DNA of 64,000 nt from the NCBI RefSeq assembly GCF_000585415.1, contig NZ_KK073876.1, positions 1,299,810 to 1,363,809 on the forward strand, read 5' to 3'. This DNA is from Sphingomonas jaspsi DSM 18422 (GTDB lineage Bacteria; Pseudomonadota; Alphaproteobacteria; Sphingomonadales; Sphingomonadaceae). A program made the position numbers and the translations under genes. The notes under the pieces were generated by a model. That model was given only the letters and a program-made list of their open reading frames with translations. It did not search any database and had not been told where the DNA came from. Shown one piece after another: positions 9,907 through 19,805 of this stretch (position 1 is the stretch's first letter; each line of letters opens with the position of its first letter).

Positions 9907-10505
9907 ATGTGCAACCTCTATCGACTGTCGAAAGGCCCTGCCGAAATCGCCAAGCTCTTTGCGGCCCGAACCGATCCTCCGGGCAATGCCGGCGAGATGG
10001 TCTATCCGGTTATCCCGAGCTGGTCGTCGCGGAAGGTCGCGTCCGGCAAATGACATGGGGCTTCCCGCTCGCCATGAAGGGCAAGAGCGGCCAGCCGCTT
10101 AAGCCAAAGCCTGTCAACAATGCCCGGACCGGCAAGCTAGACGGCGGGTTTTGGCGACCGAGCTTCCAAGCCCGCCGATGCCTAATCCCGGTGACGGAGT
10201 TTGCCAAAGCCGAAGGCGAAAGAGGGGCGATAACGCGGACTTGATTCGCGTTGCCGGACGACGGAGCCCTCGCGGTCGCAGGGATATGGCGGGAAACGGT
10301 GGAATGGGGTCCGGCCTATTCCATGGTGATGACCGAGGCTTGCGCCCAAGTCGCCGGAGTCCATGACCGAATGCCTGTTATCCTCCGTCATGAGACTTGG
10401 CCGGATTGGCTCGACAGTCCGCCCGATGATGCGCGGCTCCTATGCCAACCGTATCCCGCCGACGTGACCATCCGCCAAACCGCCAACCCGCGGGTTAGGC
10501 GTTAA
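9907..10505 (+). pseudogene. SOS response-associated peptidase (SRAP, YedK/HMCES-like), broken
   Basis: The start is normal: ATG TGC gives the family's catalytic Cys2 ('MCNLYRLSKGPAEIAKLF'). After 'GEMVYP' at about 10009 one G is missing; the next frame resumes the family sequence ('GYPELVVAEGRVRQMTWGFP', 'KPKPVNNARTGKLDG', 'RRCLIPVTEFAKAEG'). In that frame a TGA at 10242-10244 stands where the family has tryptophan (RTW), and reading continues in frame with 'FALPDDGALAVAGIWRETVE' and 'HDRMPVIL' to the stop at 10505. SRAP proteins form DNA-protein crosslinks at abasic sites. With one deletion and one nonsense change the gene should be inactive, unless the deletion is a read error. Confidence 0.85.
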
Positions 10506-14429: not shown

Positions 14430-14763
14430 TGCGAATGCGCTGTTCTTGAATGCGTCGGGAAGTGGCCGATAGCTGACTGTCTGCTTCTGAACTCGAAATT
14501 AGGAAAAGCTGCCGTTGTGTAGCCCACCGTCGGACCAATTTCGTTTCCCGCCGAGACGACGCTGGACGCTAGCTGTTTTTGCGTTCGAGGAAACATTTTC
14601 ACTGGCCGCCCATGGACCTTTGCTTGGGCACAGCGCCAATCCACGTCTTGATCTGTCCGCTCACACGATCGAGTACGATTTTGGTTCGCGAACTTGTCGC
14701 CCGAATTGAATGTCTGTAGGAACAAAAAGGGAAAACCGATTCATTTGGAGGAAGCTCCTCGTC
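14430..14763. other. Gap upstream of the CBASS operon
   Basis: About 330 bp. It contains repeat copy 9 near the left end and should hold the CBASS promoter and leader. No clear -35/-10 pair stood out. The Shine-Dalgarno of the first CBASS gene lies in GGAGGAAGCTCC, which can pair with itself. Confidence 0.5.
14456..14492. repeat. Dispersed intergenic repeat, copy 9 (degenerate)
   Basis: GGGAAGTGGCCGATAGCTGA followed by CTGTCTGCTTCTGAACT matches the GGCCGAAAGCGGACGGTCTGCTT core with several changes. Confidence 0.4.
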
Positions 14764-15972
14764 ATGTTAGCGACTGCGTCTTCTCGCCGTTTTATTGATG
14801 CTCTAGTCAATGAGCTCAGTATCAGCGACACACGTTACGAACAGGCCAATGAAAGCTATCAGTCCCTCGGACGCTGGCTGAACCGTCCTGAATCAGCGAT
14901 CACGCAATTTGCTCCGGCGGTCTACGTTCAGGGCTCGTTCGGCCTCGGCACCGTGATCAAGCCGCTCAACCTCGACGAAGAATATGACATCGACGCGGTC
15001 TGCGAGCTCAAGGGTCTTACCAAGGCCGATCTGACCCAAGAACGCCTCAAGATTCTGCTCGGCCGCGAAATCGATGCCTATCGCAGGTCCAAGGGCATGG
15101 TGAAGCCGTTGCGCGAAGGGCGCCGCTGCTGGACGCTTAACTATGCCGACGGCGCGCAGTTTCACATGGACATCGTTCCGGCGCTGCCGAACGACCAATA
15201 CGTCCGCAAGATGCTCGAAGCGCGGAGCTTGGACGCGCAATGGTCCGGCACGGCGATTGCGATCACCGATAACGAGCGTTTGGACTATCAAACCCTGACA
15301 GAAGACTGGCCGCGCTCGAACCCGAAAGGCTATCTCGAATGGTTCAAGTCGCGCATGATCGTCATGCTCAACGAACGTAAGAAACGGCTTGCCAAGTCGA
15401 TCAGCGCAAGCGTTGAGGACATCCCCGACTATCGCGTACAAACGCCGCTCCAGGCGGCGATCATGATCCTGAAACGCCACCGCGACATCATGTTTCAGAA
15501 GGACGAGATCAACTGCTCGCCGATCTCCATCATCATCACGACGCTGGCGGCGCACGCCTATGCGGGTGAGGAGGAGATTGCCGACGCGTTGCTCTCGATC
15601 CTGTCGGGAATGGATCGCTATATCGATCGCGACCGGGACAACACGGCGATCATCCGAAATCCGAGCGACCCTGTGGAGAACTTCGCCGACAAATGGGCCG
15701 AGTTTCCCGAACGCGAGCGCTCCTTCTACCAGTGGCTGCGACAGGCGCGTGACGACTTTGCCAAGGTGGCCGGCATGGACAGCGCGCAGATGATCATGGA
15801 AACGCTCTCCCCGCATGTCGGTGTTGAGCTGGCGAAACGAGCCAAGGACCGCTCGTCTGGCGGTCTGAGATCATCGATGCTGCGCGGCGCGGTGGCCGCG
15901 TCAGCGGGCGCTGCCGCGCCCTCGTTCGCTGCGACTCCGCGCGTGCCGAGCAAGCCGAAGGGCTTTGCATGA
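14764..15972 (+). CDS. cdn: CBASS cyclic-oligonucleotide synthase (CD-NTase)
   Basis: A 402-residue nucleotidyltransferase of the cGAS/DncV-like kind that makes a cyclic nucleotide alarm signal on phage infection. The core motif is complete: GS at 58-59 in 'VQGSFGLGT', the metal-binding pair D75 and D77 in 'EEYDIDAV', and a third acid D136 in 'FHMDIVPA'. With an HNH-SAVED effector it most resembles clade G enzymes (CdnG), described with Cap5 as making 3',2'-cGAMP; clade and product are inference. The tail from about 370 is Ala/Pro-rich and ends KGFA, suited to C-terminal conjugation by Cap2. The ATG at 14764 has GGAGG upstream; one at 14710 lacks a site. It overlaps cap2 by four bases. Confidence 0.95.
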   Translation: MLATASSRRFIDALVNELSISDTRYEQANESYQSLGRWLNRPESAITQFAPAVYVQGSFGLGTVIKPLNLDEEYDIDAVCELKGLTKADLTQERLKILLGREIDAYRRSKGMVKPLREGRRCWTLNYADGAQFHMDIVPALPNDQYVRKMLEARSLDAQWSGTAIAITDNERLDYQTLTEDWPRSNPKGYLEWFKSRMIVMLNERKKRLAKSISASVEDIPDYRVQTPLQAAIMILKRHRDIMFQKDEINCSPISIIITTLAAHAYAGEEEIADALLSILSGMDRYIDRDRDNTAIIRNPSDPVENFADKWAEFPERERSFYQWLRQARDDFAKVAGMDSAQMIMETLSPHVGVELAKRAKDRSSGGLRSSMLRGAVAASAGAAAPSFAATPRVPSKPKGFA

Positions 15973-17699
15973 TTTGGTGGACTTCGCTGCCTAGCCGGGC
16001 GCGAAGCGAACGCCTTGCCATCGCCGAACTCGAGGATCGCTGCGCTTGGTTGGACAAGGTAAGCTGGCGTCTGACCAAGGACCTTACCTTGTGCGCCGAT
16101 TTCGAAATCGATCGCAACGGTAAGGGCATTCCGCTCACCATCGCCTATCCCAGCTTCTTTCCCGACATGCCGCCGCAGGTTAGGCCGCGGGAGAAAGTGC
16201 GGCTTTCGGGGCACCAATATGGCGCGGGCGGCGAACTGTGCCTCGAATACCGACCGGACAACTGGGACCCGTCCTATACCGGTGCCATGATGATCGAAAG
16301 CGCCTTTCGCCTGCTTGCAGGAGAGACCGGGCCGCCTGGCGAAGAGGCGGGAGTTCCCGACGCGCACCGCACGACGCTCGGCCAGGACATCCGCAACACG
16401 AACCTGCGCTTCGTGCTGCCCGAAGATGCGCGCGGGGCGCTTGCCAAAATCCCTTTGGCCAAAATTGTCGACGCCGAGATCGTCGAGCATTTCGCCGCGG
16501 AACGCTGGTTGGCGCATCCGTGGCGCATCGGAAGCGAGGGTGAATACTGGGACGCTGCCGGGCGCATGCCGAAATTCCGGATCCGCAAGGGGGTCTTTGT
16601 TCGGCTCGACGCCTCGTTCATCCGCAAGGTGAAAGCCGAGTACGACTTCGTTGATGCGATCATCTCGGTCGCGGGCCGCGCGGACCTGTCCGAGAGGCTC
16701 GTGCAATCAGCCGACGAACTTGTCGTGATCGTAGAATGCGACGGCACCGTCAAAATGATGTCGCTCAGCGCGGGAGAGGGCCGAAGGAGCGTCTACGACT
16801 ATCGGACCGTCTGCGCCCCGAATGCCGCCGACCGGCTGCCGCAGGCCTACAAAAGGCTCGCCCAAGCATCCGTCGCGGTCGTCGGGTGCGGTTCGGCAGG
16901 CTCGAAGATCGCAGCGTCGCTTGCACGCGCGGGGGTGGGCAGGTTCGTGCTGGTCGATGGCGATGTCCTCTTTGCCGAAAATCTCGTGCGCAACGACCTC
17001 GACTGGACGGCGGTTGGTCTCAATAAGCCCGACGCGGTAAAAGCAAGGATAGTCGAGCTAAATCCGTCCGCCGCGGTTCGCTCGTTCCGCGTCGGGTTGG
17101 GGACTCAGGAAAGTTCGACGCAGACCGATGCGGCGCTGGTCGCCATCGGCGGCTGCGATGTCATCATAGACGCTACGGCGGAGCCGCAGGTCTTCAATCT
17201 CTGCGCCGCGGCGGCGCGTAACGAGAAGAAGACGCTTGTCTGGGGCGAAGTGTTCGCCGGCGGGATCGGCGGCCTCATCGCTCGGCTTCATCCGAACCGC
17301 GATCCGATTCCCCACGCCGCGCGCAGGCAGATCCATCAATGGTGCGACGATCGCGGGGTAGATCCGCCGCCCGGCAGCGCTGTGCAATATCGGCTCGACC
17401 TGCCGGATGGGGCACCCCCGGTCATTGCGGACGACGCCGACGTCACCGTCATAGCCAGCCATATGTCGCGCATGGTGCTCGACGCGCTAACCTCTGAGGA
17501 AACACACTATCCGCAGTCGGCCTACGCGATCGGCCTAAAGACGGGTTGGATTTTCGAAGCGCCATTCGATACCTGGCCCATCTCGCTGGTACCCGAAGGT
17601 GAATGGGGCCCGGAACGGGATGCAAATCTGACTGAGGAGCTTGAGGCCCTTGCGAGCGAGTTGTTTCCCGGGGCCGAAGATGCCGGCAAGAAATCATGA
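15969..17699 (+). CDS. cap2: CBASS Cap2, E2-E1 ubiquitin-transfer-like fusion
   Basis: A 576-residue fusion. Residues 1-160 form the E2-like domain, with the likely catalytic cysteine C91 in 'GGELCLEYRPDNWDPSYT'. From about 300 follows a ThiF/E1 adenylation domain with the nucleotide loop 'VVGCGSAGSKIA' and 'LVDGDVLFAENLVRNDL'. In type II CBASS this enzyme adenylates the C-terminus of the CD-NTase and links it to target molecules, which raises cyclic-nucleotide output. The E1 cysteine is not certain; one candidate is in 'HQWCDDRG' near residue 458. It overlaps the synthase gene by four bases and cap3 by four bases. Confidence 0.95.
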   Translation: MIWWTSLPSRARSERLAIAELEDRCAWLDKVSWRLTKDLTLCADFEIDRNGKGIPLTIAYPSFFPDMPPQVRPREKVRLSGHQYGAGGELCLEYRPDNWDPSYTGAMMIESAFRLLAGETGPPGEEAGVPDAHRTTLGQDIRNTNLRFVLPEDARGALAKIPLAKIVDAEIVEHFAAERWLAHPWRIGSEGEYWDAAGRMPKFRIRKGVFVRLDASFIRKVKAEYDFVDAIISVAGRADLSERLVQSADELVVIVECDGTVKMMSLSAGEGRRSVYDYRTVCAPNAADRLPQAYKRLAQASVAVVGCGSAGSKIAASLARAGVGRFVLVDGDVLFAENLVRNDLDWTAVGLNKPDAVKARIVELNPSAAVRSFRVGLGTQESSTQTDAALVAIGGCDVIIDATAEPQVFNLCAAAARNEKKTLVWGEVFAGGIGGLIARLHPNRDPIPHAARRQIHQWCDDRGVDPPPGSAVQYRLDLPDGAPPVIADDADVTVIASHMSRMVLDALTSEETHYPQSAYAIGLKTGWIFEAPFDTWPISLVPEGEWGPERDANLTEELEALASELFPGAEDAGKKS

Positions 17700-18160
17700 G
17701 GGTCGCGTTTCCCAAGCCGCTTCGTAAGCGACTGCGGCGCGAGCTCGCGCGAGCCGGGCGCGTCGAGATCGGCGGCGTTCTCATGGCTGAACAGCTTGCT
17801 CCCGGGGAGTTTCGGCTGGTCGATTTCACCGTTGACAGGCAGCAGGGCAGCGCGGCGCATTTCGTGCGCTCGGTCGAGGAACATCAACGCGCGCTTGAGG
17901 AGTTCTTCGAGCGAACCGGACACGACTACGCGCGCTTCAACTACATTGGCGAATGGCATTCCCATCCCAATCATTCGCCTGTACCGAGCCGCGAAGATGT
18001 GGCCTCAATGGAGAGTCTCGTGCACGGCGAACGCGATATTCCGTTCGCCTTGCTGATGATCTTTCGCACAAGATGGTGCGGTCTCGCGCTGAGCGCGACG
18101 CTGTTCGAGCGGACCGGCCCGCCGCGACCGGTATCGGTGAATCCGCGCAAAGGGAGATAA
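17696..18160 (+). CDS. cap3: CBASS Cap3, JAMM-family isopeptidase
   Basis: A 154-residue JAB/JAMM metalloprotease. The zinc site is intact: the glutamate in 'RVEIGGVLM' and '[20 protein letters not shown]', a perfect HxHP-x6-SxxD motif. In type II CBASS Cap3 cleaves the CD-NTase from its conjugates and so opposes Cap2. Its ATG overlaps the cap2 stop (ATGA), indicating coupled translation. The contrast with the degenerate JAB motif at the left edge of the window shows that this copy is under functional constraint. Confidence 0.95.
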
Positions 18161-18171
18161 AGAGAAAACCC

Positions 18172-19338
18172 ATGGCGGAGACGGCAAGGAAGGCGAAGAG
18201 GACTAGCATCCCTGCAAAGGTGCGATCTGCCCTGTGGGCGCGCGCTGCCGGGCGGTGCGAGTATCGTGGATGCAACGTCGATCTAGTGGGAGATTTGATC
18301 GCGGGCAAAGAAGACGGGCTCTATGGCTTCATCGCGCATATCGTCGCCGACGCGCCCGGCGGTCCGCGCGGCGATCCGGTCCGCTCGCCCCTGCTAGCCA
18401 AGGAGCTTTCCAATCTGATGCTGATGTGCGCGCGCCATCACAAGCTCATCGACAGTGACGCCGAAACCGAGCATCCCGAAGAACTGCTGGTGGGGATGAA
18501 GAAGGCGCATGAGGAGCGCATCGAAACCAATACCGGCATCGACGAAGAGCGCGCCTCACATGTCATTCGCTTCGGCGCGACCATCGCCAGCAGCGAAGCG
18601 CTTGTCTCGACACAGGCGATCTTCGCGGCAATGATGCCCGAGCGCCACCCTGCGATGCGCCAGACGATCGACTTGGAGATGCTCAACCAGGCCTATCGCG
18701 ACAATGAGCCCGAATACTGGACGCTGCAGCGCCGAAATCTCGACCGGCTCTTCGTGGAGAAGGTTGGTGGAAGGATCGAGCGACAAGAAATACGGCATCT
18801 GAGCGTCTTCGCGCTGGCTCCGCAACCCTTGCTGATCGAACTTGGCCGACTGCTTTATGACATCGTTCCGACGACCGTCCATCAGTTGCACCGGGAGCCG
18901 CCGACTTGGCAATGGCAGCGCGACAAGCCGGTGTTGGAGTTCGTTCGCGGCGAACCGACCGAGGGCGCGGACGGCGAGATCGCCTTGAAGCTCGCGGTGA
19001 GCGCGACGGTGACCGACCAGCGAATCTACGACGTCCTGGGTGAGAATGCCGCAATCTGGTCCTTGTCGATCGCTGAGCCGGGCAACGATGTGGTCCGCCA
19101 GCCCGAAGATCTTGTCGCGTTCCGCTCAGCCCTGCGCAAACTCTACAATGACATCAAGGCACGGCATGGCGAGGACACGGTGATCAACCTATTTCCAGCA
19201 CTGCCCGTTTCCTTGGCCGTTGAGACCGGACGCGTCTGGATGCCGAAGGCGGATCTACCGCTACGTATTTACGATCAGACGCGCGGGGCGGGCTTTGTTG
19301 AAACGTTCACGGTCGGTGAGACCCATCGCGCAAAGTAG
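18172..19338 (+). CDS. cap5: CBASS effector Cap5, HNH endonuclease fused to SAVED
   Basis: A 388-residue nuclease effector. The N-terminal 110 residues are an HNH domain with H56 in 'GFIAHIVAD', N81 in 'LSNLMLMC' and H90 in 'CARHHKLID'; C29, C34 and C86 are possible zinc ligands. The rest is a SAVED sensor domain ('[20 protein letters not shown]', then '[15 protein letters not shown]'). Binding of the cyclic nucleotide should trigger double-strand DNA cutting and cell death or arrest. The ATG at 18172 begins the HNH domain, 11 bases after the cap3 stop; the longer frame upstream lies inside cap3. Here cap5 is last in the operon. Confidence 0.95.
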
Positions 19339-19729: not shown

Positions 19730-19805
19730 TGGTGACCCCTACGGGACTCGAACCCGTGTTTTCGCCGTGAGAGGGCGACGTCCTGGACCGCTAGACGAAG
19801 GGGCC
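19730..19805 (-). tRNA. tRNA-Glu (anticodon CTC)
   Basis: Reads GGCCCCTTCGTCTAGCGGTC at the 5' end and ends AGGGGTC-A-CCA with CCA encoded. The acceptor stem pairs fully with one G-T. The anticodon arm is TCGCC-CTCTCAC-GGCGA, giving anticodon CTC, which reads GAG. The T arm holds GTTCGAGTC. Its 3' end faces the accessory region, the usual side for island insertion. Confidence 0.97.

Follow-up and report, generated by a model that had tools for sequence, protein, structure and literature searches.

Do four adjoining genes of Sphingomonas jaspsi DSM 18422 make up a complete anti-phage operon, and which messenger would such an operon use? The genes lie in a 64,000-nt stretch of contig NZ_KK073876.1 (RefSeq assembly GCF_000585415.1, positions 1,299,810 to 1,363,809 of the forward strand), referred to here as the window and numbered from its first base. 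A preliminary description made from the DNA letters had read them as a complete type II CBASS (cyclic oligonucleotide-based anti-phage signaling system) operon. We conclude that the four genes very probably form an intact CBASS operon of type II (the long form, with E1-E2 and JAMM proteins) and of the CdnG-Cap5 kind. Four complete open reading frames (ORFs) are found on the + strand at 14764-19338, in the order CD-NTase (cGAS/DncV-like nucleotidyltransferase), Cap2, Cap3 and Cap5:

14764..15972, + strand: CdnG-type CD-NTase (cyclic dinucleotide synthase), 402 aa; PADLOC, Pfam, 9WOO match and fold
15969..17699, + strand: Cap2, E1-E2 fusion, 576 aa; PADLOC E1-E2 model, best fold match 7TO3
17696..18160, + strand: Cap3, JAMM isopeptidase, 154 aa; PADLOC JAB model, PF14464
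18172..19338, + strand: Cap5, HNH-SAVED nuclease effector, 388 aa; PADLOC Endonuclease effector model, 7RWK match

The synthase and Cap2 genes overlap by 4 bases (ATGA at 15969-15972), as do the Cap2 and Cap3 genes (ATGA at 17696-17699). The Cap3 stop codon TAA (18158-18160) is followed by 11 bases and then by the Cap5 ATG at 18172. The position, strand, both overlaps and the 11-base gap had been given in the preliminary description and were confirmed when the ORF coordinates were rechecked. An alternative in-frame synthase ATG is present at 14710; aligned homologues favor the start at 14764.

The best PADLOC models are Cyclase PDLC00770 for the synthase (469 bits, E-value 4e-141), E1-E2 PDLC00855 for Cap2 (710 bits, 6e-214), JAB PDLC00905 for Cap3 (216 bits, 6e-65) and Endonuclease effector PDLC00739 for Cap5 (528 bits, 5e-159). 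Because of these E-values, chance is excluded for the four identities. Pfam domains were found in each protein: SMODS and DncV-like NTase in the synthase, ThiF in Cap2, Prok-JAB in Cap3 and SAVED in Cap5. Two marks of CBASS are present, namely a CD-NTase with the GS motif and three catalytic Asp, and an adjacent effector with a cyclic-nucleotide sensor domain (Cap5 SAVED PF18145, 171 bits versus a cut-off of 26.2). Three type II (long) features were also found: a Cap2 with E2 and E1 parts and C91, a JAMM Cap3 and a synthase ending in Ala. The four protein identities proposed earlier are borne out by the PADLOC and Pfam profiles for all four and by predicted structures for Cap2 and the synthase.

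The synthase features used in the comparison with its relatives are as follows:

14932..14994, + strand: GS motif (G57, S58) and DxD (D75, D77), active site; VcCdnG alignment
15169-15171, + strand: third catalytic Asp, D136; VcCdnG alignment
15319..15333, + strand: N186 and Y190 of the lid (N/Y pair of clade G); alignment to VcCdnG N194/Y198

In the alignment, G57/S58/D75/D77/D136 correspond to G56/S57/D73/D75/D135 of VcCdnG, and the GS pair and the three Asp are invariant in 30/30 aligned rows. N186/Y190 align with VcCdnG N194/Y198, a lid pair described as the predominant clade-G form (PMC12804361). Ranked by sequence, the top three solved relatives are 9WOO (291 bits), SmCdnG 8HSB (124 bits) and 7LJN (76 bits); 9WOO is VcCdnG, a maker of 3'2'-cGAMP (cyclic GMP-AMP) according to PMC12804361, and 7LJN is Bradyrhizobium CdnG by its structure title. 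A 30-row synthase profile searched against solved structures finds the same three entries at E 1e-106 to 5e-20, and next after CdnG come CdnB-type entries only (E 1e-4 to 2e-3). The predicted synthase model has a mean pLDDT (predicted local distance difference test) of 81.5. Its six best fold matches all belong to Serratia and Bradyrhizobium CdnG, with CdnB, DncV and CdnD ranked after CdnG; 9WOO is not among the 50 matches listed. In a tree of 57 rows, which has VcCdnG as its sole outside reference and does not itself prove clade G, the window synthase groups with cyclases of Sphingopyxis, Sphingosinicella, Novosphingobium and Sphingomonas. Metagenomes contain relatives, mostly unnamed, that are closer than the Sphingopyxis locus L002 described below, with identities of up to 90% for Cap2 and 82% for the synthase. 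The assignment of the synthase as clade-G-like gains support from its sequence rank, its fold rank and the lid pair.

The modifying enzymes and the effector carry the following sites and domains:

16239..16241, + strand: Cap2 C91, putative E2 active-site Cys; conservation and analogy to B. cereus Cap2
16842..17507, + strand: ThiF/E1 adenylation domain of Cap2 (PF00899, residues 292-513), containing the candidate E1 Cys C459
17957..17998, + strand: JAMM core, Cap3 residues 88-101; pattern match
18337..18339, + strand: Cap5 H56, putative HNH active-site His; aligned to AsCap5 H46
18745..19311, + strand: SAVED sensor domain (PF18145, Cap5 residues 192-380) with pocket residues R241, S277 and R284; Pfam and alignment

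In Cap2, C91, the ThiF loop residues G306, C307, G308, S309 and G311, and C459 are invariant in 40/40 rows (window included for C91 and the loop). Since the E2 Cys of B. cereus Cap2 is C91 (PMC11153139), C91 of the window protein may by analogy be the E2 active-site Cys, and C459 is a candidate E1 Cys. Alignments to solved Cap2 proteins did not serve to place the E1 Cys, because they end at profile position 424, before C459. The predicted Cap2 model (mean pLDDT 81.2) has E. cloacae Cap2 7TO3 as its best fold match, nearly full length. Cap3 has an exact H-x-H-x7-S-xx-D core, a pattern matched by all 80 of the Cap3 ORFs tested (the window contributed two).

Cap5 matches AsCap5 (7RWK, Asticcacaulis) with 349 bits, 168/362 aligned residues being identical (46%). 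H56, N81 and H89 align with AsCap5 H46, N71 and H79, and the alignment likewise pairs C29, C34 and C86 with AsCap5 cysteines; catalytic and zinc-binding roles for these six residues are inferred. R241/S277/R284 align with R234/S274/R281 of LlCap5, reported to contact 3',2'-cGAMP (PMC8568899), and with R231/S265/R272 of AsCap5; this messenger activates the Asticcacaulis Cap5. By alignment, Cap5 combines an HNH nuclease and a SAVED domain with the ligand Arg/Ser/Arg kept. A predicted 3',2'-cGAMP messenger gains support from the synthase sequence rank, N186/Y190 and the Cap5 pocket residues. The catalytic residues that had been claimed in all four proteins are found by alignment to relatives or as the exact JAMM pattern, and the profiles, nearest solved relatives and motifs uphold the proposal of a complete type II CBASS operon with a clade-G-like synthase.

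One further feature ties the synthase to Cap2:

15961..15969, + strand: C-terminal GFA, the presumed Cap2 substrate, closing a disordered tail of 36 residues; alignment and pLDDT

G400, F401 and A402 are invariant in 30/30 aligned rows, the linker before them varies, and residues 367-402 have pLDDT below 50, a predicted disordered tail. Among the 120 nearest matches listed (the window's own included), 115 end in GFA and 5 in GFG. According to PMC10097602, operons that have full Cap2 and Cap3 strongly conserve a Gly/Ala at the cyclase end, and conjugation was abolished in the tested system when this residue was deleted or replaced by Ser, Val, Arg or Trp. The GFA end would fit this need for Gly or Ala in Cap2 conjugation.

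By analogy to characterized relatives, Cap2 would adenylate the C-terminal Ala of CdnG, transfer CdnG to C91 and attach it to target proteins, and Cap3 would cleave the CdnG-target conjugates. The messenger would bind the Cap5 SAVED domains and lead to their assembly, which would switch on the HNH nuclease; the cell's DNA would be degraded by Cap5 and phage spread limited. The sources for this scheme are PMC8568899 and PMC12804361 for CdnG-Cap5 and PMC10097602 and PMC11153139 for type II conjugation.

Several results weigh against reading the locus as an intact CdnG-Cap5 type II operon. The NCBIfam CBASS models NF041078 and NF050170 were reached only below their curated cut-offs (cGAS 65.2 bits versus 150, Cap3 38.6 versus 200); therefore these models do not cover the lineage of the operon. 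Pfam recognizes neither an E2 domain in Cap2 nor an HNH domain in Cap5. The structural match of Cap2 to 7TO3 is only modest (template modeling score 0.53, root-mean-square deviation 8.7), solved Cap2 proteins are matched by sequence in the E1 part only, and the sole solved match of Cap3 is weak (9ILD, E 5e-4). In the Cap5 pocket, LlCap5 F304 and T344 are replaced by N305 and L344; AsCap5 has N293 and M332 at these positions. A type II CBASS with another messenger (e.g., 3',3'-cGAMP, c-di-AMP or a trinucleotide), to which Cap5 has been retuned, is quite unlikely in our estimation. It would find a precedent in the B. cereus type II system, which has the same gene order and uses cA3 (cyclic triadenylate) with a Nuc-SAVED effector (PMC11153139), and VcCdnG, supplied with only ATP or only GTP, is reported to make c-di-AMP or c-di-GMP (PMC12804361). 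The nearest solved synthase, however, is the 3'2'-cGAMP maker VcCdnG, and the N/Y lid pair and pocket residues R241, S277 and R284 are all retained.

A promoter scan of the operon also gave nothing above chance. This would suit a passenger, silent or in decay, that arrived with a horizontally gained region and gives no protection in its host, as would the finding of a matching Cap2 in 1/71 genus genomes (its own), the location in a lower-GC region adjoining a tRNA gene and a nearby SRAP gene that is split into two frames. Such a passenger is unlikely, given that the four frames are intact, their divergence from relatives is third-position-biased and the checked motifs are retained. It is highly improbable that Cap2 and Cap3 work like Bil- or Bub-type ubiquitin-like pathways and target something besides the synthase. 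BubCD structures do come straight after Cap2 in the fold search, but there is no space for a modifier gene between the four genes (a ubiquitin-like gene elsewhere was not searched for), and the synthase ends in a Cap2-usable Ala/Gly with invariant last residues after a variable linker.

The intact CdnG-Cap5 operon resembles several known systems. The Asticcacaulis sp. CdnG-Cap5 system (PMC8568899; 7RWK) is alike in its HNH-SAVED Cap5, which has the same ligand Arg/Ser/Arg; its operon is called 'type II (short)', with a third gene of unknown function, and the passages concerned in that paper do not describe a full Cap2/Cap3. Vibrio cholerae CdnG-Cap5 (PMC12804361; 9WOO) supplies the closest solved synthase, with the GS motif, three Asp and N/Y lid in common, but it belongs to a distant lineage, separated in the tree from the window's group by a very long branch. 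The Bacillus cereus type II CBASS (PMC11153139) has the same order of cyclase, Cap2, Cap3 and Nuc-SAVED, the E2 Cys C91 and a cyclase ending in Ala; it differs in its cA3-activated effector and in an E1 Cys numbered C403. E. cloacae Cap2-CdnD02 (7TO3), the best Cap2 fold match, shows 14% identity in the structural alignment and its cyclase is a CdnD. The closest named relative, known from its sequence, is a locus of Sphingopyxis sp. NORP11 (L002) with four genes in identical order and a Cap2 of 71% identity. Differences from L002 at codon positions 1/2/3 number 48/26/204 in the synthase, 121/78/312 in Cap2, 38/19/87 in Cap3 and 60/30/216 in Cap5, a third-position bias as expected for genes under purifying selection. 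The operon adds a clean, complete CdnG-Cap2-Cap3-Cap5 set in an alphaproteobacterium. It should be useful for studying full type II regulation in a probable 3',2'-cGAMP system; the operons described in PMC8568899 are of the type II short form.

The same gene set is found in many alphaproteobacteria. In a scan of species genomes, 80 loci were kept of 120 confirmed, and 51/80 have a window-type CdnG beside Cap2. The fourth gene on the same strand is Cap5 in 19 of these 51 loci and another SAVED effector in 21, the latter class being assigned by low score against the Cap5 profile. Cap5 lies upstream on the opposite strand in 9/51, and no effector was seen in 2/51 (L026 and L055), which are short contig ends. 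The preliminary description had rightly noted that the effector gene comes last; this order is common (40/51 loci) and is shared with the published B. cereus operon (PMC11153139), and the idea that it is unusual was rejected. The operon is an ordinary example of a known system and its gene order is not new. At least five effector changes are needed on the cyclase tree (the count takes in rows that have an effector, also those of second cyclases, but not the window), and therefore effectors have been exchanged under one cyclase lineage. The 21 loci with a non-Cap5 SAVED gene after cap3 are:

L007-L010, L012-L017, L021, L024, L025, L028-L030, L032, L034-L036, L072

Six of these 21 were scanned, and 2TM-SAVED effectors were found in 6/6. 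Some loci carry a double system, in which CdnG-Cap2-Cap3-Cap5 is followed by a second CdnG lacking the GFA/GFG tail and then by a second SAVED effector:

L061, 5742-13262
L066, 5742-13271
L076, 5742-13271
L077, 550-6907

The second SAVED effector is a 2TM-SAVED protein in L061 and was not reached in L077.

Sister lineages differ in the synthase tail. Two to three variable residues beyond the conserved GFG were found in 13/52 cyclases (window included; four second cyclases without the tail motif were set aside). A JAMM Cap3 is present in 13/13 of the loci with such an extended CdnG tail:

L018, L019, L020, L022, L023, L027, L033, L038, L039, L041, L042, L043, L073

L022 is a Bosea caraganae locus. 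When one extended cyclase was used as the query, the 120 matches listed, a sample biased to the query's lineage, comprised 70 extended, 43 plain and 7 outside the pattern; by eye, the 7 are five plain variants, one extended and one without a tail. The motif preceding the extension in the 70 proteins is GFG in 64 and GFA in 6, and there are 43 different extensions. The last residue is Gly or Ala in 12/70 and neither in 58/70; such proteins, if they are pro-forms, would need trimming by a protease before Cap2 acts. No extended tail was found among the 120 nearest window relatives listed. On the tree the trait takes two changes, and it may have had a single origin. The substitutions tested for conjugation, as given in the published passages, did not include Glu, Lys or Ile. 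Literature passages on type II CBASS conjugation yielded no mention of natural extended tails, which we do not claim as unreported. It is quite conceivable, if somewhat short of probable, that some sister cyclases are pro-forms trimmed by a protease (most likely the partner Cap3) before Cap2 acts, in the manner of pro-ubiquitin; the window GFA would then be a ready-made form that needs no trimming. The extended tails raise the testable question of whether Cap3 is also a maturation protease.

The operon lies close to a tRNA gene:

19730-19805, - strand: tRNA-Glu(CTC), where the variable region around it probably integrated; ARAGORN

It starts 391 bases past the Cap5 stop codon. GC content is 0.57 left of the operon, 0.62 inside the operon and 0.66 beyond the tRNA on the right. 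A Cap2 of this type occurs in 1/71 genus genomes, its own only (E up to 1e-40), and in 8/397 family genomes, its own included (E < 1e-60). Horizontal gain of the operon is likely because of its location near the tRNA-Glu and the single matching Cap2 in the genus. In 19/20 loci examined (own included), a tRNA-Glu lies within the ~3-4 kb loci around a neighboring wecB-like gene. The 3' end of the tRNA-Glu next to the operon recurs in the chromosome as a 54-bp direct repeat (G000:C1:1268786-1268839, 98% identical), 50.7 kb to the left; a second comparison gave 95% over 62 bases. A search confined to tyrosine integrases (PF00589) gave five matches in the genome, none of them between the two copies. 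The segment between the copies holds sulfate-assimilation genes, and in two relatives DNA like its cysteine-synthase-like (PALP) gene lies at a distance of 9-14 kb from this tRNA. Because of these three observations, the limits of a possible chromosomal island are uncertain.

Carriage by a mobile element was considered and rejected: viral contigs contain no relative, phage records gave only weak E1-domain matches (four records, the best covering 25% of Cap2), and the 198 plasmid records with related Cap2 genes are all below 60% identity. A defense hotspot at the tRNA was likewise rejected, with no PADLOC match at 1e-10 (10 chosen ORFs, 5/6 relatives fetched). A terminator scan of the operon gave nothing above chance. 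Elsewhere in the window, the SRAP peptidase gene is split over two ORFs (9909-10244 and 10251-10505), apparently by a frameshift. A dispersed short repeat family around TGGCCGAAAGCGGAC was found in the lower-GC part of the window, with copies at these positions:

3281, 5461, 7407, 11741, 11857, 12522, 12902, 14463

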